From contig NC_055987.1 of assembly GCF_018446385.1 (NCBI RefSeq), forward strand, positions 4,674,705 to 4,738,704: DNA of 64,000 nt, given 5' to 3'. Source of the stretch: Zingiber officinale (lineage: Eukaryota; Streptophyta; Magnoliopsida; Zingiberales; Zingiberaceae). Positions 26,655 to 51,903 of the stretch are shown in pieces. The stretch's first letter is position 1. Every line of letters starts with the position of its first letter. The notes beneath the pieces were generated by a model. It was given only the letters and a program-made list of their open reading frames with translations, was not told where the DNA came from and did not search any database. A program made the translations under genes and the position numbers.

Positions 26655-27243
26655 TGATCCGATGGTAAAAATAGGGGGCTTGCACGAGTCGAGGTCAACG
26701 ACACCTGGAGGTCAAAGTCAAGATAGTCAACCTACGAGTCAGGCCAATCGAAGAGGTCACTTGGCCGATCGGCCAGAATAGCGCCCAGGCCGGCGCAATG
26801 ACAACTCGACCGTAGGTCGGGTTTCCGACGCTCATGTGTACGTATAAAAGAGCTGATCCGCCGAGCGGCCTGCCTGCTCGGCTGAACGGCAGATCGACTA
26901 AGGCTGCAGCCCCGTCAAAGTATGTGACTGAGTGACCTTCTCGCTCGGTCCGGTATGCTTGCACTCCCGGACACCAAGATGGCCGAGCGACCCTCCCGCT
27001 CGGCCTAATAACCGACAAAAGACTCAGAAGTGGACAAAAGGGGCAGCTGGTGATATCCTTCTCGAGACATGGGTCGTCGACAAACAGCATGGTCGGCGGT
27101 CGGACTGGACAGAAAATCATACGGTGGAAGTTTCCACTATCATGTCAGAGATATGCTCGGACGATTGCGGTATGGTGTCAGGTACACTTTTTTGACACAT
27201 CCATTATGAGGTATGCGTTGAGGAGCGGGCACGCCTTGAGAAG
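26655..27243 (+). repeat. 5' LTR of the Tat element, first part
   Basis: Matches 51038 onward in the 3' LTR. It ends at AGAAG (27239-27243), the duplicated target of element A. Confidence 0.88.
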
Positions 27244-27351
27244 TGTTGGTGCGGGTAGCACTAACGGTCTAACCCAGGTTTTGATGAATGACAAATAGGT
27301 TAAGTTAGTTGTGTTGTTGTCTGACACTTTGATCAAGTGTGCAGGAAAAGT

Positions 27352-27548
27352 CCAGCTAGGTCGACGGGCTGACCGGATAGCTGGCGAGAAGTCCAAGCGG
27401 GTCGACGGGCTGACCGGACGCTTGGCGAGAAGTCCAGCTAGGTCGACGGGCTGACCGGATAGCTGGCGAGAAGTCCAAGCGGGTCGACGGGCTGACCGGA
27501 CGCTAGGCGAGAAGTCCAGACGGGTCGACGGGCTGACCGGACGTCTGG
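27352..27548 (+). repeat. Five-unit 41-bp hairpin array with compensated stems
   Basis: The unit period is exactly 41 bases (starts 27352, 27393, 27434, 27475, 27516). Each unit has a 7-base left arm, a constant 19-base middle (GGTCGACGGGCTGACCGGA) and a right arm complementary to that unit's own left arm: CCAGCTA/TAGCTGG, CCAAGCG/CGCTTGG, CCAGCTA/TAGCTGG, CCAAGCG/CGCTAGG (one mismatch), CCAGACG/CGTCTGG. The constant middle itself folds (GGTC...GACC). The 3' LTR repeats the array at about 35808-35996, with its first right arm deleted. Confidence 0.93.
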
Positions 27549-27824
27549 CAGGTAAGTGAGGTAAGTCACTGTAGGGGAGTAACTGTGAGGACGCGTTCCC
27601 GGGAAGGGGACATTAGGCGTCGATCCGGCTTAGATCCATTTCAGATGTCTAAGTCGAGATCGTGACTAGATTCCGGTCTCGGAAAGACGGAATCTAAGTC
27701 ATACTCTCTTTATCTATCTGTTGAACTTTAACTGTGCTAACCATTTGTTTTACAGGATATATATTTGCCTCGGACTAACCTTGTTTTGCAGGAAAAAGGA
27801 GTCTTTCTGGAACAAGGTGGTCCG

Positions 27825-27990
27825 GGCGCCCGGAGGGGATCCGGGAGCCGAGAGGTCCGGGCGCCCGGAAGGCGAATTTTATCCAGACACCTCGTCGCTA
27901 CGTAGAGCATCTTGATTTGAGCAGTTACGTCACACTCCAGGCGCCCGGAAGGGATCCAGGCGCCCGGAACAGCATATAAAAGAAGCCCCA
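27825..27990 (+). promoter_or_regulatory. GC-palindrome block and TATA box of element A's LTR
   Basis: Repeated GGGCGCCCGGA / GGGATCC modules, each able to pair with itself, directly precede CATATAAAAG at 27973-27982. The layout suggests a U3 promoter. The same block is at about 36267-36412 in the 3' LTR, and a related block lies inside the element at 32836-32990. Confidence 0.65.
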
Positions 27991-28562
27991 GACAGGAGCT
28001 TCAGAATCAACTTTTTTGAGAACTCTTCTGCTGATCTTGCTGCTCGACGTTCAAGTGCGACGCCAACAACGCTCCGACAAAAGTGCTCTTCCGGTTTTTG
28101 TTTAATTTTCTTTTTGTCGGTATTGCTTTATTATTACTAGCATCTCCTGTACTTTTTCTGTAATCACATTTCGACTTGCTAGTGATTGCCCAACGAAAGT
28201 GGTCAAGGACCACGGACCTTCGAGTAGGAGTCGTCACAGGCTCCGAACGAAGTAAAAATATTTGTGTCTACTTTATCTTTTTCCGCTGCGCTTAAACTCT
28301 TGTTTTTTCGAATCGATATTCACCCCTCTATCGAATCTAACGGTCCTACAAGTGGTAGAGCAGGTACCGCTCTGATTTGGTGCAACCACCAATCAGACAG
28401 GTGAATTTTTTAATTAATTTTAAAACTGGTGTTTCGATAACTTAATATTTAACTAATCAATTTAAATTAGTGCAACACGAATCTAGTTTTTTTTTTCTTC
28501 CCGCACTACTAATCCAAGACCAAGTCTTGGGATATTTTTTTGGTTATTTATCCGTGCACAGA

Positions 28563-30035
28563 ATGTCCCAACAAGAAGGATTCAACACAGTGCGACCTCC
28601 ACTCTTCAACGGGGACGACTTCCCTTCTGGAAGAAGCGCATGGAGGTCTACCTCAAGACAGACTTCGACCAGTGGATGAGCATTACGAAACCTTACAAAA
28701 TTCCAGTGGACAACGCCGGGAATCTAGTGGATCCTGAAGACTGGATAGCAGATCTCAAGAAAAAAGCATCAACAGAAAATAAAGCGATCAACACTCTACA
28801 GTGCGGATTGACAAGAGAAGAACTGAACCGAGTCGGTCCACACAAAAATGCTAAAGAACTATGGGACAAGCTGATCGAACTGCACGAGGGAACAAGCGAC
28901 GCTAAGGTAACAAAACGAGACCCGCTTCTAAATAAAATTTTTAATATAAAAATGCAGGAAGGAGAAACAGCGAATCAACTACACGCGAGGATCAAGGACA
29001 TCCTCAACGGGCTTCATGCAATAGGCCATCATATGGAGAACAGAGACTTAATAAGGTACGCATTAAACGCCTTTCCACGTAACAGTTTGTGGGCATCAAT
29101 AGTGGATGCCTACAAAATTTCTAAGAATCTTTCTAAATTAAAATTGGATGAGCTTTTCTGTGAATTAGAATTGCACGGACAAACTAATGCTGGAGCCGAG
29201 AAAGGTGTAGCCTTATTTGCAGGTTCCTCCAAGAAAAGCAAGCCTGAAGTTGAAGAAGAATCTGACCAAGACTCCGAAAACGAAGAACACCTGGTGAACT
29301 TGGTAAGAAAAATGTTCACCAGGAAAAAGAGGAGCTTCAGAAAAGGATCTTCAAAAGATCAGCTCTTCGGAACAAAAGAACGTGACTTGCTACGGCTGCA
29401 ACAAAAAGGGACATTACAAGAACGAATGCCCAAAACTAAAGTTCGACAAACCAAAACCAACAAAAAGGAAAGCACTCAAAGCAACGTGGGACGACTCCTC
29501 GGACGAATCAGAGGAAGAAGAGTAGAAACATCAGAGCCACCTCGCACTGATGGCCCGCGAAGCTGAAACAGAAGATGATCTGAACCCGAAACAAGCCACG
29601 AGTCCGTACTCATTTCCGAAGGCTCGAATGAGGTATATCTTAATTTAAACAAAAAGTTCTTTAGAATCATTTCTTGTTTAAATAGTAAATTAACCAAAGT
29701 AGAAAATGAAAACAAATTACTTCTTAAGGAAAATCAAAACCTCAAGGAACAATTAAAAAATTCAAATCCAACTCAAGATCTAACACTTGAGGAGGAGAAT
29801 TTATCATTAAAAAATGAAATAAACAATTTAAAGGAGATGTTAGAAAAATTCACAACAAGATCAAAAAATTTAGACTTAATCCTAAATAATCAAAAAGCAT
29901 GTTATAATAAAACCGGACTAGGATATAAGTCGAATTCAAATAAAACCTTCAAATCATTAATAACCCAATACAAGTCAACCAATCTAGCTTGGGTTCCGAA
30001 AGCGTGTCTAACCACGCAAGTAGGACTTAATCAAT
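28563..30035 (+). mobile_element. Gag region of element A
   Basis: Contains a Copia-type gag (28640-29566): LNRVGPHKNAKELWDKLIEL, then NIKMQEGETANQLHARIKD and LHAIGHHMENRDLIRYALNA, the UBN2-type core. An acidic stretch follows, then a zinc-knuckle-type region near 29385-29440 and a Leu/Glu/Lys-rich coiled-coil stretch near 29650-29860. The reading is broken. The region is cut by the solo LTR at 30042, and its low-complexity end resumes to about 31290. No protease motif follows. Confidence 0.82.
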
Positions 30036-30158
30036 ATTATATGTTGGAGCAATCTAGGTGCCCTAAGTTTTGATGTTTGGGCAAAGGTTTAAGTTAGGTT
30101 TATTGTTGTATTTGATATGCATTGTGAGTGTGCAGGATACAGGTACAACAAGGAAAGT

Positions 30159-30405
30159 CCAAGGGTGAGTCTTGGCGGTGTAAGTCCAATCATGTAGTCT
30201 TGGCAACGTAAGTCCAAGTGTGATCTTGGCAAAGGAGGAAAGTCCAAGGATGAGTCTTGGCGGTGTAAGTCCAAGTGTGTAGTCTTGGCAACGTAAGTCC
30301 AAGTGTGATCTTGGCAAAGGAGGAAAGTCCAAGGATGAGTCTTGGCGGTGTAAGTCCAAGCATGTAGTCTTGGCAACGTAAGTCCAAGTGTGACTTGGCA
30401 ATGGA
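30159..30405 (+). repeat. Hairpin array (CCAAG...CTTGG) in the solo LTR
   Basis: About nine short hairpins of the form AAGTCCAAG...CTTGGCAA, arranged as a higher-order repeat of about 85 bases (three hairpins per unit). Arms are mostly CCAAG/CTTGG with different loops. Long minus-strand ORFs across it are repeat artefacts. Confidence 0.85.
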
Positions 30406-30649
30406 TGAAGTCCCGGAGGCGCGACCTCTTGGCAAAGGAAGACCCGACAACAATGACAAGGCCGATGGAAGCTCCAGAAGGCAAGACGTGAAGGATGGGG
30501 AGGCATCCGAGGGACGCAAGGCTGATGGAGGAGGCTAGAAGGCTAGAAGGCTAGGTCTAGGTTGGTCGGGCGAGAACGAGTGCTGAGTGAATGTACTCGG
30601 GGTAAAATCCAAAATTAGGGTTTACTGTAGCAGTACTGTAGCGTACTGT

Positions 30650-30770
30650 AGCAGTCGACTGGTGGTTTCATCAGTCGACTGGTGCACTGTAGCTTGACTA
30701 GTAGAGAGCCGTTGAGAGAGCCGTTGGGCTGGCACCAGTCGACTGGTGCAAGGACCAGTCGACTGGTAAC
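30650..30770 (+). repeat. CAGTCGACTG palindrome block
   Basis: Four copies of the perfect palindrome CAGTCGACTG, some extended to CCAGTCGACTGG, lie shortly upstream of the TATA box of the solo LTR. Confidence 0.85.
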
Positions 30771-31804
30771 GGGAAAATCAGCTTACTGATTTCTTCCAAG
30801 CTCTATAAGAAGGAGCTTGGGATGGCCGGCCAAGGTGACGAAATTAGACTTGGTTAAAGCCTAATTAGTAGTCACCAAAGTGCTCAAGGATCTCTTGTGT
30901 CCAAGTGATCTTGGTTGGAGTTGTGGTGAGGTTTCTCCACCCACAAGGAGGTTGAGCTAGCCGGAGTTTGCCGGGGACTAATCCACCGACGGATTGAGGG
31001 ATCGTCCACCTTACGGACACGCCGTGGAGTAGGAGCAAGTTATCTCCGAACCACGTAAACACCTAAAGTTTTGGGTGAGACGCTATTCACCCCCCCTCTA
31101 GCGGACGTCAAGGTCCTAACATTATATACCTAAAGAAAAAATACATTATATAAATAAACCAAACCAAAATCCAAAATACAAACCTAAATCAAATTCAAAA
31201 TCTAAACAGTTTAAAAAACAACAAAATTATCACCAAGTTAACTATAACTATAAAAAGAATCGACACAAGCCTAAAATCAAAACTTAAATTAATGGCCAAT
31301 AATTCAGGGGGAGGCTCCAGAATAGCTGGCACTTCCAAAACTAACTTACCCGACAGGGTAACCCAAAACTAACAAACCCGGCAGGGCAATTAGAATTAGA
31401 GACCAAGTTTAACTTGAATCATGGTACTGGTGAAATTTTTGGATGATAGTACGTTAGGGAAACTTGGGCATCGCATGTCTAGAAAGATATGGTTTCGATC
31501 TGGTGCATTTGGCCAAGTGGAACTGACCGAAGCTACCCTTAAACGAATCCTAACCAGTTAGACCAAGATTTAGTACTAAGTTCCGTGGATAGGACTATTC
31601 AGAAAACCTCGAAAGGTTGGTTACTTCTAATGATGTCCTTGTGACTCACCAAGCTTAGAAGTTTATCCGAAGAATGCCTATTTGTGGAAACCAAAGCTAA
31701 GTCTGAATCTAACACAAGTTAAAACAAAACTCTGTAATCAAACTAATTTCATCTCACAAAATCATAGGATTCCCTGATTAATAATATAGATCGGGTGAGA
31801 TGAA

Positions 31805-32790
31805 TAAGGCTTAAATTTTAATTTTAAAAGTTTTTTTAACTTAAAAATTATTTTCAAAATTTTAATTCTAAACATAAAAATTATTTTCAAAATATTAATT
31901 TTAAACTTAAAAATTAATTTCAAAATTTGAATTTTAAACTTAAAAATAAATTTCAAAATTTTAATTTTAAACTTAAAAATTAATTTCAAATTTTAATTTT
32001 AAACTTAAAAATTAATTTCAAAATATTAATTTTAAACTTAAAAATTAATTTCAAAATTTTAATTTTAAACTTAAAAATTAATTTCAAAACTTTAATTCTA
32101 AACTTAAAAATTAATTTCAAAATTTTAATTTTAAACTTAAAAATTAATTTCAAAATTTTAATTTTAAACTTAAAAATTATGTTCAAAATTTTAATTTTAA
32201 ACTTAAAAATTATTTTCAAAATTTTAATTTTAAACTTAAAAATTATTTTACAAATTATAAACTTAAAAATTATTTTCAAAATTTTAATTTTAAACTTAAA
32301 AATTATTTTCAAAATTTTAATTCTAAACTTAAAAATTAATTTCAAAATTTTAATTTTAAACTTAAAAATTAATTTCAAAATTTTAATTTTAAACTTAAAA
32401 ATTATTTTCAAAACTTTAATTCTAAACTTCAAAATTATTTTCAATTTTAAACTTAAAAATTAATTTCAAAATTTTAATTTTAAACTTAAAAATTATTTTC
32501 AAAATTTTAATTTTAAAACTTAAAAATTATTTTCAAAATTTTAATTCTAAACTTAAAAATTAATTTCAAAATTTTAATTTTAAACTTAAAAATTAATTTC
32601 AAAATTTTAATTTTAAACTTAAAAATTGTTTTTAAAACTTTAATTCTAAACTTAAAAATTATTTTCAATTTTAAACTTAAAAATTAATTTCAAAATTTTA
32701 ATTTTAAACTTAAAAATTATTTTCAAAATTTTAATTTTAAACTTAAAAATTATTTTCAAAATTTTTTTTTCAAAGTTTTAATTTTAAAAC
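31805..32790. repeat. 33-bp AT-rich tandem array
   Basis: Around 28-30 copies of a 33-base unit (built from AAACTTAAAAATTA and TTTCAAAATTTTAATTTT), with small variants such as TATTTT/TAATTT. Since 33 is a multiple of three, several frames stay open on both strands, giving 11-residue repeats (for example ILKLIFKFKIK on the minus strand, 31986-32444). I regard these as repeat artefacts, not proteins. It ends in a poly-A run at about 32808-32827. Confidence 0.93.
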
Positions 32791-32835: not shown

Positions 32836-32990
32836 CGCCCCGCCCTAAATCAACCTCGGGCGCCCGGAAGGGATCCGGGCGCCAGGGGCGGGCGCCCCTG
32901 GTATTCCCCTCCGGGGCGCCCGGAGGGGATCCGGGCGCCCCGCCCTAAATCAACCCCGGGCGCCCGGAGCTCCCTATAAATAAGGGGCAG
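32836..32990 (+). promoter_or_regulatory. Internal GC-palindrome/TATA module in element A
   Basis: After the AT array and poly-A, GC-rich modules GGGCGCCCGGA and GGGATCCGGGCGCC recur, followed by CTATAAATA at 32974-32982. This is the same arrangement as in the element's LTR, placed about 150 bases before the extra ORF region. An internal promoter is inferred, not shown. Confidence 0.55.
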
Positions 32991-33136: not shown

Positions 33137-34411
33137 ATGGCTCCTCGGTAAAACCTCTTCCCCTATCTGAAATTTTATTTGAAATTATCTTTGCAAACTC
33201 TCTTAGAATATCTTTTAAACAGTAAGAAACGAACAAATACTGGTGCTGGACCCTCCAATGCTAGTACAGACCCTAGGTTTCCCACAGACGAACTTAGGAT
33301 TAAGTTTGAGTCCACCATTTATAAGGCCATAAGGACTACCTGCATAGATAGATCGTTCTTTCTAAGGTCATGTCCCTCTGCTTTAGAGGTTATAGGCTAC
33401 TATAACTTAACGAACCTTGTCGAATGTACCAGTCCAATAAACATAAGTCTGTGTGCCGAATTTTGCAATAACCTAGTAAAAGTAGACGATTTCACCTATA
33501 CCACTAGGGCAGCAGGTACTTTTTCCCCTACGACTATCCGAGAGTTTTAGAGTTGCGTCCATCTACTTGCTCCTTTTTGTGCTATCCTCCGAGGATCTAC
33601 CGCTCAAGATCCCTACTCACATATTACTCTCGATACGATTTATTCAGATTTTTTCGGGGAGAGAGATCCCATGTGACACGCTTTAGGTCAAGAGAACTTG
33701 AGTCCGGGACTACGCTCTTTATAGGGTTGTAGTCCTTTGCATTTTACCACTGACTACTCGGGACATCGCTGTGATGCGCCCATTCCATTCGTTCTTACTT
33801 TATGCCCTGATTCATAGGTTAGACATTGACATTAGCTTACACATCTTCTCCACCATCATCTATTCATTTGGATTTGTGACCGACAATCGAGTCCATATAC
33901 CATTTGGTCACATTCGACGCTATATGTCCTCGTTGCACATTGATGTCACTAGGGAGACGTTGCCCATATGACCGAGTTCGATGTTATAGCCGCTCGAAAC
34001 TTTTCCCTAGCCGGTATCCACATAGATAGAGATGACGGGACTATGTCTTGGCGGAGGGGCACACCGGCCGATCCGACGCATTGTGGACGAGTTCATGCCG
34101 CACTATTTCCGAGGAAGCCGCACGGCTCCACCACCACCCCTCCGAGCACCACGACACGCTCCCGCACTCTAGCCGACCGTATGGCCGGACTAGAGAGCTA
34201 TGGCGAGTCTCCAGCAGGAGAACTCGATTTTCATCGGGACATGCGCGAGAGGTTGCCGAGTTACGAGCCGCCAGGGACACCCGATGATGGCACTTCTTCG
34301 ATCCATGGGATCTGGACCACCCCCTTCATCATCTCAGTAGCCTTAGTGATGACCTACTTCTGTAGCTACACTACTTGTAAAATATTTTGGATTTATCTAG
34401 TGGCATTTTAA
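33137..34411 (+). mobile_element. Extra ORF region of element A
   Basis: A broken reading region with a few breaks. The best-preserved part (33179-33550) has IYKAIRTTCIDRSFFLRS and a V-DDFTYTTRA-G-FSPTTIREF ending, which resembles the N-terminal part of the plant transposon-associated domain often named 'putative plant transposon protein'. The later part is Pro/Thr-rich. Extra ORFs between pol and the 3' LTR are known in SIRE-type Copia elements, but here there is no pol. The assignment is tentative. Confidence 0.5.
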
Positions 34412-35698
34412 ACTTACATTGAATATGTTCTATCTTAATAGGCTAGGATCTTTCAAAAATACTTTCAAAAATGATTTTACCAACTTATAGGCTAAACTTG
34501 TTTGTTTTCAAACTTTCCATTTTTAGATTTTCAAAAACAGTTTTGGCCTTAGACTAGTTTTGACTCCTTAGAAAGCATGTACCCATAGGACTAGTTTTTT
34601 AGCATCTCACCAATACCCTAGGTTTACCTTGCTTGTGTTTGACAAACATAGAAAGGGGTGAGATGCATAGGCCAAATGTCTGGACTTAAGATGCTTATTT
34701 CAGTGCATCAGCATAAGTCTGGACGTTAAATACAATTCAGATATTAATCAGATTAAAATTCATCAGTCAAGTCAAACACTGATTGATTATAATTAACTTA
34801 ATCTGACTAACCAAGTGAAAGCTACTATCTTTTGATAGTTAGTTAGTACCTAATTGGTTAGACAGCTGGTTAAAGTTAAGTATTAAATTCAGGGGGAGAA
34901 ATAAAACTACTTTAGTTTTCCAAATTGAATTTTAAACTTAATTTTGAAAATCAAAGTTTAAAAACACCTTGTTTAAAAATTGTGAAATTTTTTACAAAAA
35001 TTTGAAAGTTTGAAAGGTTTTGAACTTTGAAATTTTGATTTTGAAAAACAAATTTTACAAAAACATTCTAAAAATATGATCTTACTTTTGACCAATATCC
35101 TTTGAAAACTAAAAGTAAAGATTTAAATTTAATTTAACTTTACTTTGAATATTGTCCTGAATCTAGTTCTTAAAATTTGATATTTTGATTTCAAGATTAA
35201 ATTTTACGAAAAAATTAGTTTACAAACTAAGCTTCTCAAACTCATTTTCCTTGATTTTGAAAATTGAATCTTTTACAAACTTAGTGTTGAAAAGTAAATT
35301 TCAATTAGTTTTAAAAAAATAGGTTTTTCAAACTTAGTTTTGGAATTTTTGGTTTTGAAAACTTATGTTTGAAAAAGCGTTTCAAAGATGAAACTTGTTT
35401 TGAATATTTAAATCTTGAAATTTAGACCTTATACACTTATGTTTTGGATTGAAAAATTATACTTTTGTCCTTAAATTCTGAACTATGATTGTTTAAGTGT
35501 TATTCAGTAACTCTACACTATGATTGTTTACCCTTGTTTTTTTGATGAATGCCAAAGGGGGAGGAGGGTTAGATGGTTAAGTTAGCTAAACCAATTTGAA
35601 AACACAAACTGACTTTAAAACCACACAAATGCATGTTGTTTCGTACATATGCTTTCACTAACTTAACCAGGTTGTCATTCCATCAAAAAGGGGGAGAT
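34412..35698 (+). mobile_element. 3' non-coding part of element A
   Basis: AT-rich, with many TTTGAAA/TTTCAAA words and no ORF of note. It ends in a polypurine tract with AAAGGGGGAGA before the 3' LTR at 35699. Confidence 0.7.
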
Positions 35699-36782
35699 TG
35701 TTGGTGCGGGTAGCACTAACGGTCTAACCCAGGTTTTGATGAATGATAAATAGGTTAAGTTAGTTGTGTTGTTGTCTGACACTTTGATCAAGTGTGCAGG
35801 AAAAGTCCAGCTAGGTCGACGGGCTGACCGGATAGAAGTCCAAGCGGGTCGACGGGCTGACCGGACGCTTGGCGAGAAGTCCAGCTAGGTCGACGGGCTG
35901 ACCGGATAGCTGGCGAGAAGTCCAAGCGGGTCGACGGGCTGACCGGACGCTAGGTGAGAAGTCCAGACAGGTCGACGGGCTGACCGGACGTCTGGCAGGT
36001 AAGTGAGGTAAGTCACTGGAGGGGAGTGACTATGAGGACGCGTTCCTGGGAAGGGGACATTAGACGTCGATCCGGCTTAGATCCATTTCGGATGTCTAAG
36101 TCGAGATCGTGACTAGATTCTGGTCTCGGAAAGACGGAATCTAAGTCATACTCTCTTTATCTATCTGTTGAACTTTAACTGTGCTAACCATTTGTTTTAC
36201 AGGATATATACTTGCCTCGGACTAACCTTATTTTGCAGGAAAAAGGAGTCTTTCTGGAACAAGGTGGTCCGGGCGCCCGGAGGGGATCCGGGCGCCCGGA
36301 AGGCGAATTTTATCCAGACACCTCGTCGCTACGTGGAGCATCTTGATTTGAGCAATTACGTCACACTCCAGGCGCCCGGAAGGGATCCAGGCGCCCGGAA
36401 CAGCATATAAAAGAAGCCCCAGACAGGAGCTTCAGAATCAACTTTTTTGATAACTCTTCTGCTGATCTTGCTGCTCGACGTTCAAGTGCGACGCCAACAA
36501 CGCTCCGACAAAAGTGCTCTTCCGGTTTTTGTTTAATTTTCTTTTTGTCGGTATTGCTTTATTATTACTAGCATCTCCTGTACTTTTTCTGTAATCATAT
36601 TTCGACTTGTTAGTGATTGCCCAACGAAAGTGGTCAAGGACCACGGGCCTTCGAGTAGGAGTCGTCACAGGCTCCGAACGAAGTAAAAATATTTGTGTCT
36701 ACTTTATCTTTTTCCGCTGCGCTTAAACTCTTGTTTTTTCGAATCGATATTCACCCCCCCTATCGAATATAACGGTCCTACA
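35699..36782 (+). repeat. 3' LTR of element A
   Basis: 1084 bases, closely matching 27244-28350, with the hairpin array, GC block and TATA box in the same order. AGAAG (36783-36787) follows it. Confidence 0.93.
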
Positions 36783-36787
36783 AGAAG

Positions 36788-41687: not shown

Positions 41688-42773
41688 TGTTGGGGGATCG
41701 GTGGCCGGCTTGAAGGGGGGTTGGATAGACGACACCCCAAATCAATTGATCTTCCGACACTTGTTAGTATGCGCAGCGGAATATACAAAACAAACAAGCT
41801 AAAGAAAATTAAACTAAAGACAAGAGAGAATGCAAACTAAGCTACACGATCATTTACGTGGTTTGGAGATAAAGCTCCTACTCCACGGCGTGTCCTTGAG
41901 GTGGACGATCCCTATCCGTCGGTGGATTACTCCCCGGAAGACCTCCGGCTAGATCACCTAGCTCCTTGTGGGTGGAGAAACCTCACCACAACTCTCACCA
42001 AGGACTCTTTAGAAGCTAGGGCACTGATAGACTACTAATAGGGGTTAACCACCTCTATTTCGTTAGGAATAACCAAGCTTCCAAGCCTTGGTTATATAGT
42101 CGCAGGTTGAAAACCCCGCCTACCAGTCGACTGCCAAAACATGCAATCGACTACCCTATGTGGAAATTCGACTGTTACATCCCAACGGCTCGATACGAGT
42201 TGACTGCTAAAACTTGCAGTCGACTGGTGCAATCGACTGATCCACACTGACCGAACGAACAGAACCATTGTGTTCGCACCCAGTCGACTGCACCAGTCGA
42301 TTGATAAAACATGCAGTCGACTGCTACAATAGCGCTATAGTACTACTACAGTAACACTACAGTAAAACCCTAAAACTAGGATTTTACTCCGAGTATAATC
42401 TCTCGTGCACTCGTACCCTCACCCTTATGACTCATTTGACGCTTCCTTTGCAGCTTTAAACCTCTTGTCTTCAAGCCTACTTCCTTTGGCTCTTGTCCCT
42501 CGGATACATTCAAGCCCGCGGCTCGTCCCCAATGTCATCCTTCGCGTATGCCTCGAAGTCGCTTCCCTTGGCCCTTGTCCTCGCTGCCTTATCCACGGTC
42601 CCTCGGATGCTTCATCCTTCACCGGACCCGAAGCCATCAACCTGAGTCGCATGTGTATCCTGCATACCTGCACACTCACATACACATATCGAATACAAGG
42701 GTGAACCTAACTTAAATCCTTTACCCAAACACCAAAACACATAGTCACACGGATCATTGGGATTGCTCCAACA
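41688..42773 (-). repeat. 3' LTR of element B (minus orientation)
   Basis: 1086 bases, TGTTGG...CCAACA. It contains CAGTCGACTG-type palindromes at about 42120-42330 and a TATA box reading on the minus strand (CTATATAACC, about 42092-42101). Confidence 0.9.
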
Positions 42774-42862
42774 ATCTGCCCCTTTTTGATGTTTGGTAAT
42801 ACGTTTAAGTTAGGGAAAACATAATAGCAAAACAATATGCTAAAACAAATGGACTTACATTG

Positions 42863-43063
42863 CCAAGGCTACACACTTGGACTTACACCGCCGAATGGAC
42901 TTACGTTGCCAAGGCTACACACTTGGCTTACACTGCCGAATGGACTTACGATGCCAAGGCTACACACTTGGACTTACAACGCCGAATGGACTTATGTTGC
43001 CAAGGCTACACACTTGGACTTACACTGCCGAATGGACTTACGATGCCAAGGCTACACACTTGG
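42863..43063. repeat. Five-unit 46-bp hairpin array in element B
   Basis: The perfect-armed hairpin CCAAGGCTACACACTTGG occurs five times, at 42863, 42909, 42954, 43000 and 43046 (period 45-46). On the minus strand it reads GTAAGTCCAAGTGTGTAG then CCTTGGCAACGTAAG, nearly the same as units of the array in the solo LTR at 30159-30405. Here it lies inside the element rather than in the LTR. Confidence 0.93.
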
Positions 43064-43389
43064 ACTTACAATGTCGAAAGAATACATCATGCATTGGAAC
43101 CTATCCTTAGGCTCCCCCTATATCTATGCTCCCCATTGAGCTAGGATTTTACCACATGCTTTTTAAGGACCTATCCCAAGGCTTCCCCTACGCAAAGACC
43201 CTTTCAGGTTTTCTCAACTTAACCTTACTTCTCCCCCTTTACCTAACATCCAAAAAGTTCTCCAACAATATCCCAAATGTTGAAAACTTGTCATTCAAAT
43301 TGACCCTAAACTCATGTATTTATCCTCTATGGATCTCATATACCTATACGAGCTGACTCGGTCACAAACAACGCTGAAAAACAGTTTTA

Positions 43390-45671: not shown

Positions 45672-46747
45672 TGTTGGAGAATCGGTGGCCGGCTTGAAGG
45701 GGGGTTGGATAGACGGCGCCCCCAAATCGATTGATCTTCCGACACTTGTTAGTATGCGCAGCGGAATATACAAAACAAACAAGCTAAAGGAAATTAAACT
45801 AAAGACAAGAGATAATGCAAACCAAGCTACACGATCAATTACGTGGTTCGGAGATAAAGCTCCTACTCCACGGCGTGTCCTTGAGGTGGACGATCCCTAT
45901 CCGTCGGTGGATTACTCCCCGGAAGACCTCCGGCTAGCTCACGTAGCTCTTTGTGGGTGGAGAAACCTCACCACAACTCTCACCAAGGACTCTTTAGAAG
46001 CTAGGGCACTGGTAGACTACTAATAGGGGTTAACCACCTCTATTTCGTCAGGAATAACCAAGCCTCCAAGCCTTGGTTATATAGGTCGCGGGTTGAAAAC
46101 CCCACCTACCAGTCGACTGCCAAAACATGCAGTCGACTGTCCTCTGTGAAAATTCGACCGTTACATCCCAACGGCTCGATACAAGTCGACTGCTAAAACA
46201 TGCAGTCGACTGATCCACACTGACCGAACGAACAGAACCATTCTATTCATACCCAGTCGACTGCGCGGTCGACTGCACCAGTCAACTGATAAAACATGCA
46301 GTCGACTGCTACAATACTGCTACAGTAACGCTACAGTAACCCCCTAAAACTAGGATTTTACTCCGAGTACAATCTCTCGTGCACTCGTACCCTCACCCTT
46401 ATGACTCATTTGATGCTTCCTTTGTAGCTTTAAACCTCTTGCCTTCAAGCCTACTTCCTTTGGCTCTCGTCCCTCGGATGCATTCAAGCCCGCGGCTCGT
46501 CCCCAATACCATCATTTGCGTATGCCTCGAAGTCGCTTCCCTCGGCCCTTGTCCTCGCTGCCTTATCCACGACCCCTCGGATGCTTCATCCTTCATCGGA
46601 CCCGAAGCCATCAATCTGAGTCGCATGTGTATCCTGCATACCTGCACACTCACATACACATATCAAATACAAGGGTGAACCTAACTTAAACCCTTTGTCC
46701 AAATACCAAAACACATGGTCGCACGGACCATTGGGATTTCTCCAACA
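45672..46747 (-). repeat. 5' LTR of element B (minus orientation)
   Basis: 1076 bases. Palindromes of the CAGTCGACTG type at about 46105-46310 lie upstream (in minus-strand terms) of CTATATAACC (about 46075-46084), the LTR's TATA box. Confidence 0.9.
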
Positions 46748-47385: not shown

Positions 47386-47504
47386 AAGGTGCGCCAATGT
47401 AATTCATTTTATATTTTCGTTCTTCGGTACCCTTTGACTACAAGAATGAAATCATGAAATACAAAAGGTATACCAAATACGCGCCAAACGGTCGAGCTCC
47501 ATCA

Positions 47505-47823
47505 GACCGTCGAGCGGTGACGTTAAACGTCAGAGTCGAACCGGCGACTATAAACCCCCCGGCCTGAAGACCGTCGAGCGACGACGTTAAATGCGAGAGT
47601 CGAACCGGCGACTATAAACCCTCCGGCCTGAAGATCGTCGAGCGGCGACGTTAAACGCCAGAGTCGAACCGGCGACTATAAAGCCCCGACCTGAAGACCG
47701 TTGAGCGACGACGTTAAACGCCAGAGTCGAACTGGCGACTATAAACCCTCCGGCCTGAAGATCGTCGAGCAGCGACGTTAAACGCCAGAGTCAAACCGGC
47801 GACTATAAAACCCCGCCACAAAT
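47505..47823 (+). repeat. 64-bp tandem array in the Tat element
   Basis: Five units starting at 47505, 47569, 47633, 47696 and 47760. Each reads GA(C/T)CGTCGAGCG, CGACGTTAAACG, AGAGTCGAACCGGCGACTAT and a CCCC-rich end. Tat-lineage elements are known to grow such arrays between integrase and the 3' LTR, and these can seed satellites. Confidence 0.92.
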
Positions 47824-51037: not shown

Positions 51038-51903
51038 TATAGTCTGGTGGTAAGAATAGGGGGGCCTACAAGAGTAGGGGTCAACGACACGTGGAGGTCA
51101 AAGTCAAGATAGTCAACTTACGAGTCAGGCCAACCGGAGAGGTCACCTGGTTGATCAGCCAGAATAGCGCCCAGGCCGGCGCAATGACAACTCGACCGCA
51201 GGTCGAGTTTCCGACGCTCATGAGTATGTATAAAAGAGCTGATCCGCGGGGCGACCTGTCTGCTCGACTGAACGGCAGATCGACTAAGGCTGCAGACCCG
51301 TCCAAGTATGTGACCGAGTGACCTTCTCGCTCGATCCGGTATGCTTGCACTCCCGGACGCTAGGATGGCCGAGCGACCCTCCCGCTCGGCCTAGTAACCG
51401 ACAAAAGATTCAGAAGAGGACAAAAAGGACAGCTGGTGATATCCTTCTCGAGACATGGGTCGCCGACAGACAGCATGGTCAGCGGCCGAACCGGACAGAG
51501 AATCGTACGGTGGTAGTTTCCACTGTCATGTCAGAGATATGCTCGGACGGTTGCGGTATGGTGTCAGATACACTTTTCTAACACATCCATTCTGAGGTAT
51601 GCGTTGAGGAGCGGGTACCCCTCGAGAAGCGTGTGCGCGCCTTCCATGGACCCTATATAAGGACCCCTAGACTTCGACGGAGGTATGCATTCATCTTTAC
51701 TATAGCTACAGTCCTCATCCTGTTACTTTGCTTCTCCTTGCCATCGTCTGACTTGAGCGTCGGAGGGTCGTCACCGGAAACCCCTTCCCGGCTCGGCTTT
51801 GTTGCAGGTTCATCGGACGTTCACACCATCTTGAGGATCAACCGAAGACAGCAGAAAGCGCTATGTCCCCAGTGTCTATCGACTCGACTCTCGGACAGGA
51901 TCA
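51038..51903 (+). repeat. 3' LTR of the Tat element
   Basis: 866 bases matching the split 5' LTR, preceded by a purine tract (GAAGGGGAGG, 51026-51035) and ending GGATCA. Two TATA-like boxes (TATAAAAGAG near 51230 and CTATATAAGG near 51652) are retained. Confidence 0.9.

Follow-up and report, generated by a model that had tools for sequence, protein, structure and literature searches.

The long terminal repeats (LTRs) of a ginger retrotransposon carry a row of short hairpins whose outer arms differ from unit to unit and change in pairs. Our results suggest that this array is a variant of the palindromic repeats of Sireviruses, a class that is itself known, in which every unit has its own covarying arms. 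Once inserted, the stems decay like neutral DNA, and compensation arises between lineages. The array was found in a stretch of 64,000 nucleotides of Zingiber officinale (positions 4,674,705-4,738,704 of contig NC_055987.1, hereafter the window), where positions 27348-27552 hold five 41-bp units in the 5′ LTR of a Sirevirus-type Copia element. Each unit consists of AAGT, a 7-base left arm, GGTC, an 8-base loop, GACC, GGA and a 7-base right arm. The corresponding hairpin has a 7-bp outer stem specific to the unit, a near-constant GGTC/GACC inner stem and a loop of 8 nt; on the 3′ side, a GGA bulge of 3 nt separates the two stems. The hairpins of both LTRs, with predicted folding energies, are as follows:

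27352-27384, plus strand: hairpin of unit 1, arms CCAGCTA/TAGCTGG, -16.0 kcal/mol, z -1.87
27393-27425, plus strand: hairpin of unit 2, arms CCAAGCG/CGCTTGG, -16.4 kcal/mol, z -1.51
27434-27466, plus strand: hairpin of unit 3, arms CCAGCTA/TAGCTGG
27475-27507, plus strand: hairpin of unit 4, arms CCAAGCG/CGCTAGG, A.A mismatch in both LTRs, -12.2 kcal/mol, z 0.07
27516-27548, plus strand: hairpin of unit 5, arms CCAGACG/CGTCTGG, -16.8 kcal/mol, z -1.28
35807-35995, plus strand: array of the 3′ LTR, one truncated first unit followed by four full units
35840-35872, 35881-35913, 35922-35954 and 35963-35995, plus strand: the four full units of the 3′ LTR array

Named by their variable bases, the arm types of the 5′ LTR follow each other in the order GCTA, AGCG, GCTA, AGCG, GACG. 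A preliminary description, made from the sequence of the window, had stated that each right arm pairs with the left arm of its own unit. This holds for units 1, 2, 3 and 5, the outer stems being perfect in four of the five units, and fails for unit 4 with its A.A mismatch. The final unit of the 3′ LTR array reads CCAGACA/CGTCTGG and contains an A.C mismatch. The array is rich in GC (0.66) and in CpG (observed/expected 1.17). One more hairpin of like layout, TAGATTCCGGTCTCGGAAAGACGGAATCTA, is located downstream in the U3 of the 5′ LTR (27668-27697, plus strand).

Judged by its sequence signatures, the host element is a Sirevirus-type Copia LTR retrotransposon. Its landmarks are:

27239-27243 (left) and 36783-36787 (right): target-site duplication AGAAG, flanking the element
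27244-28350, plus strand: 5′ LTR (TGTTGG...CCTACA), pairing with 35699-36782
27821-27834 and 27856-27869, plus strand: two TCCGGGCGCCCGGA palindromes between the array and the TATA-like site
27975-27982, plus strand: TATA-like promoter box, about 420 bp past the array, assigned by consensus match
28353-28361, plus strand: position of the primer-binding site, differing from the Sirevirus 9-mer TATCAGAGC, which is exact in sibling copies
28487-29566, plus strand: reading frame with Retrotran_gag_2 (PF14223, copia-type gag), residues 79-223, E 3.1e-15
35689-35696, plus strand: terminal polypurine octamer AGGGGGAG; next come AT and the TG of the 3′ LTR at 35699
35699-36782, plus strand: 3′ LTR, pairing with the 5′ LTR

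The array opens the U3 and starts about 100 bp into the LTR. As in Sireviruses, AGGGGGAG stands 10 bp before the 3′ LTR together with an AT/TG attachment site, further polypurine octamers occur at 31306, 34891 and 35556, and the polyC-rich integrase signal TTCACCCCCCC precedes the 3′ LTR end, also in sibling copies; the octamer and AT/TG signatures are given for Sireviruses in the accessible part of PMC2829016. At loci longer than 2.5 kb, AGGGGGAGAT directly precedes 24 of 122 TGTTGG[TA]G sites. The 9-mer TATCAGAGC was found exactly in 15 and with at most two edits in 3 of 97 LTR-end-like matches of other loci, the remaining 79, which include 3′ LTRs and chance matches, having none. A pol domain was absent from the four frames of the element that were scanned. 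An empty target site is seen in a paralogous repeat near 51625-51629. The two LTRs differ by 20 substitutions in 1083 aligned sites (K2P 0.019), which dates the insertion to about 0.7 My ago at an assumed rate of 1.3e-8 substitutions per site per year.

Further repeats were noticed in and around the element. An LTR of another family (TGTTGGAGC...CCTAACA; 30042-31121, plus strand) is nested in it, with TTATA on both sides; short hairpins (AAGTCCAAG...CTTGG) form a separate array within this LTR at 30155-30413. Similar AAGTCCAAG...CTTGG hairpins make up an array at 42848-43078 (minus strand), which belongs to a minus-strand element with an LTR-like pair at 41688-42773 and 45672-46747 and lies outside the LTR, in the part of the linker that immediately precedes the 3′ LTR. 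GGGCGCCCGGAAGGGATCCGGGCGCC palindromes resembling those of the LTR recur in the internal region of the plus-strand element (32850-32975, plus strand) ahead of the frames 33152-33550 and 33953-34411, neither of which matches Pfam. Also within this element, an AT-rich unit of 33 bp is repeated about 29 times in tandem (31833-32765, plus strand), and a GC-rich unit of 64 bp forms about 5 tandem copies at 47504-47815.

The covariation of the arms is strong and extends across the genome. Genome-wide counts refer to a 3.09-Gb assembly holding both haplotypes, and many of the sampled loci lie at the beginning of a single chromosome (C1). A strict unit pattern with four free bases per arm gave 60,264 matches, compared with 0 for the reversed control. 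At stem pair 7, next to the core, A..T was found in 34,271, G..C in 21,207, A..C in 2,797 and G..T in 1,081 units; 55,478 of 59,356 units (93.5%) are thus Watson-Crick paired, against 52% for independent sides. In 212 distinct exact-core units, picked blind to their arms, a mean of 6.58 of 7 pairs is Watson-Crick, versus 4.22 when the right arms are reshuffled (1000 shuffles, maximum 4.52), and arrays in other copies therefore pair as well. Among 91 distinct 33-mers, 89.6% of the cells pair versus 74.2% after shuffling, and the covariation score of 0.564, as against 0.272 for shuffled arms, was reached in 0 of 500 shuffles, with slid controls at or below 0.134. The comparison of genomic copies with a shuffled null, as proposed in the preliminary description, thus comes out in favour of covariation. 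Two other measures on the same 91 units are less extreme: a two-sided change is present at 7 of 7 pairs, which 8 of 500 shuffles equalled, and the further pair types were reached by 18 of 500 shuffles. Chance or a plain tandem repeat is ruled out by the shuffles of the 212 and the 91 units.

Related repeats show the same behaviour. A second unit family, CCT[A/G]G...C[T/C]AGG (n = 185), contains A-T in 89, G-C in 85, A.C in 7, G.T in 2 and other combinations in 2 units, and pair 2 of the inner stem (n = 299) is G-C in 280, A-T in 11, G.T in 7 and A.C in 1. Related arrays hold ordered, differing hairpins, for example TCAAGTA, CCAGATG, CCAAGTA, CCAAGTG, CCTAGCA and ACCAACA. Loops vary between families, and GGTC...GACC plus a GGA or AGA bulge is constant in the relatives. 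Neighbouring units share the same arms in 5 of 114 cases, versus 16 in within-array shuffles (29 distinct related 41-bp arrays; p 0.0005, a value that ignores common descent).

The two LTRs of an element allowed us to separate changes in resident copies from changes between lineages. We used 29 same-strand LTR-pair candidates, one of them spanning about 15 kb. A polypurine tract (PPT) before the downstream LTR only confirmed 18; among the 11 others, two show either PPT-like matches ahead of both LTRs or a degenerate match, and for others the sequence analysed was too short. A unit was counted if its first mate had 5 or more of 7 pairs, a threshold that favours paired units; overlapping detections, 20 units with indels and one unit whose mate was of a different type were left out. 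In all 29 candidates, 972 of 1008 stem pairs are unchanged, 35 are changed on one side, 1 is changed on two sides and unpaired, and 0 are compensated. The 18 confirmed pairs gave 603 unchanged, 20 one-sided, 0 two-sided unpaired and 0 compensated among 623 stem pairs. Before filtering, 37 one-sided, 2 two-sided unpaired and 1 two-sided paired changes had been counted, and the sole two-sided paired case came from the unit with a mate of a different type.

The units that do not differ between mates fall into 12 perfect types and 12 distinct mismatched types, and the perfect types are linked by 7 single-pair compensated steps. When compensated steps and mismatched types among these units (7:12) are set against compensated and one-sided changes within pairs (0:35), Fisher's test gives p 0.0003, which is a rough index only because the unit types are related. 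In the GCTA type, pair 4 shows one-sided changes in 714 (G.T) and 461 (A.C) units genome-wide and the double change in 59, where 44 are expected from independent one-sided hits on some 7,540 parental units, a number estimated from 22 of 100 among the matches listed. CCAACTA/TAGTTGG, whose 59 copies fit independent hits, was consequently dropped as a type of its own. Since 59 is near 44, resident copies decay without repair of pairing, and since all within-pair changes but one are one-sided and 0 are compensated, pairing is kept in transposing lineages and is not restored in resident DNA. This rules out that pairing is actively repaired once an element resides in the host DNA. The inheritance of mismatched units shows that one bad hairpin is tolerated.

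With 12 perfect arm types present in both mates, conversion between two or three unit types, which the preliminary description had named as a refuting case, is not a sufficient account of the pattern. Another view is that a dozen old unit types arose a single time each and were spread by recombination, in which case the present arrays would be silent on current selection. It fits the dominance of a few arm types, their conserved order GACA, GCTA, AGCG, GCTA, AGCG, GACG and the existence of hybrid units with left and right arms of different types, of which at least 12 and at least 11 occur in two sets of matches listed. We consider it quite improbable as the whole explanation: the old types still needed paired changes to arise, as seen in the 7 single-pair steps, and hybrids are rare, with 0 among the 24 types that both mates share unchanged, and the two noted in the pair candidates (L125 and L112) are not identical in the mate.

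Complementarity could also arise with no function at all if template switching during reverse transcription copied one arm onto the other. Compensation between lineages that is absent within LTR pairs fits a process of the transposition cycle, and the absence within pairs would follow because both LTRs are copied from one template. Copying across the hairpin, however, would tend to erase the GGA bulge, yet the bulge side is constant, by choice of anchor in exact-core units and also in looser units among the matches listed. Mismatches are moreover inherited uncorrected, in 12 distinct types, and the divergence of the arms beside a constant core requires another cause, so that we give this mechanism little credence. 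The arms covary across 12 types, and the preliminary view that paired changes point to a kept fold is borne out to the extent that the pattern suggests it.

The question of which molecule folds was approached through mismatches and energies. An excess of G.T would indicate a fold of the sense RNA, because the symmetry of the stem gives G.T and A.C matching contexts. Pair 7 has 2797 A.C and 1081 G.T mismatches, about three quarters of the A.C among the matches listed belonging to one subfamily; the AGTA type has 150 A.C and 104 G.T at pair 5; G.T exceeds A.C at pair 4 of the GCTA type (714 versus 461) and in the inner stem (7 versus 1), and A.C exceeds G.T in the second unit family (7 versus 2); the inherited distinct mismatched types include 6 G.U, 2 A.C and 4 others, which is not significant. 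With such mixed counts, no consistent preference of G.U over A.C was found across unit types and stem pairs. The predicted energies of single units range from -12 to -17 kcal/mol, with z from -1.9 to 0.07, and two units fold equally well or better in antisense (z -2.4 and -2.5). For the whole array of the window as a single RNA, the predicted energy is -86.6 kcal/mol (z -1.18), and the lowest-energy model joins bases of different units and does not consist of five separate hairpins; this predicted fold is weak evidence for RNA. An Rfam scan of positions 26000-47000 of the window gave 0 matches above the gathering score.

An alternative is a cis-regulatory array acting as DNA, in which transcription factors would bind the GGTC/GACC dyads upstream of the promoter and the outer stems would aid hairpin or cruciform extrusion. 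The place of the array in U3 upstream of a TATA-like box, its high GC and CpG content and the lack of a G.U asymmetry are in line with this, as are the GGTC/GACC also carried by Sirevirus motifs of Osr8, Osr10 and Vitis in the accessible part of PMC2829016. We nevertheless regard it as rather unlikely. Arms as short as 7+4 bp, interrupted on one side by a 3-nt bulge and joined by a loop of 8 nt, would probably make a poor cruciform, and a dimer binding the duplex needs no arms that are variable in their letters and complementary. We infer that such arms cannot be a duplex site read by sequence; free letters with kept complementarity matter only where one strand folds back on itself. For this reason, and because the short bulged stems would be weak as cruciforms, RNA is favoured. 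A reading of the core as a W-box was set aside, the 41-bp family being mostly without TTGAC in the loops.

Palindromic repeats in this part of Sirevirus LTRs are not new, and the function suspected in the preliminary description can hardly be called undescribed; packaging, dimerisation and RNA stability, which it named as examples, are candidate roles. The accessible part of PMC2829016 (Bousios et al. 2010) describes clusters of palindromic repeated motifs (RM) upstream of the TATA box, with proposed cis-regulatory and small-RNA roles; the motifs include CGGTCAGACCG (Osr8), CGGTCTGACCG (Osr10) and CGGTCGACCG (Vitis). Like these boxes, the ginger palindromes cluster in the first part of a Sirevirus LTR, before the TATA, are rich in GC and CpG and, as in the three named motifs, have a GGTC/GACC core. 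RM boxes are given there as 10-20 bp long with one consensus per element, whereas the ginger units are longer hairpins, in which the outer arms covary and are particular to each unit, and in which GGA bulges out on one side. By position, the array (27348-27552) lies as RM clusters do, in the upper half of the LTR and upstream of the TATA-like site at 27975. Of the CGG-CCG core signature, the right side (GACCGG) contains CCG and the left side of the window units reads AGGTC or GGGTC; as the signature is thus only half present, the array is not a strict member of the RM class. The TCCGGGCGCCCGGA boxes downstream fit the signature better than the array units do. The RM class has at least eight copies of one consensus per element; the ginger element has five units in each LTR, one of them truncated in the 3′ LTR, with differing arms.

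A palindrome-rich cis-region of the maize Sireviruses Ji, Opie and Giepum is said to have been described by Bousios et al. in 2016. As far as the accessible parts of PMC5311732 and PMC10760457 go, the palindromes of maize Sireviruses are small-RNA hotspots with predicted hairpins and, as in ginger, are LTR palindromes predicted to fold, in a region of high sequence variability. Their reported motif CACCGGACNNNGTCCGGTG is one sequence, unlike the unit-specific arms of ginger. Hairpins in the genomic RNA of Ty1, also a Copia-type element, were tested by compensatory mutations; in contrast to the ginger array, these structures are at the 5′ end and form no tandem U3 array, according to the accessible part of PMC5454406. 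A literature of partial coverage, which lacked the main maize study, yielded no account of Sirevirus LTRs with arms that covary and are specific to the unit. Combining Sirevirus with compensatory change gave only a review on frameshifting, and as other structured LTR-retrotransposon RNA with compensatory mutations this partial search returned, by title, Ty1 RNA dimerisation alone.

It has been argued before that elements keep LTR palindromes despite their cost because the structure has a function. The explanation that we tentatively favour, at a little less than an even chance, is a palindrome-rich Sirevirus U3 in which each repeat forms its own hairpin and the fold, acting as RNA, is kept by selection that the element undergoes in the course of its life cycle. 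Such selection is proposed because it explains both compensation between lineages and decay after insertion. Against this explanation stand the mixed G.U and A.C counts, the predicted fold of the whole array, the good folding of antisense units, the empty Rfam scan and the inheritance of mismatched units. It would preserve the fold of a single strand, and the GGTC...GACCGGA core would be kept by sequence. The hairpins would stand in a row in the U3 at the 3′ end of the genomic RNA, within its 3′ untranslated part and shortly past the polypurine tract. The ligand may be borne by the constant inner stem, bulge and loop, and the outer stem may be a clamp with free letters; as a first guess, the reader of the hairpins may be Gag or a host RNA-binding protein. 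A more specific version, which we think unlikely, is a multivalent RNA platform on which ordered hairpins with unit-specific clamps would show one bulge-and-loop ligand repeatedly at this place in the genomic RNA. The differing clamps of neighbours would then perhaps limit mispairing of hairpins or recombination between repeats.

Paired changes of the arms at the level of lineages, with none in resident copies, are evolutionary evidence suggesting that the fold is kept beyond the sequence. If the multivalent platform were true, plant retrotransposons would possess a structured RNA element of a new class. One ginger assembly contains about 60,000 strict units, so that the family offers a rich natural data set for asking which strand and which step of the element's life cycle needs the fold.
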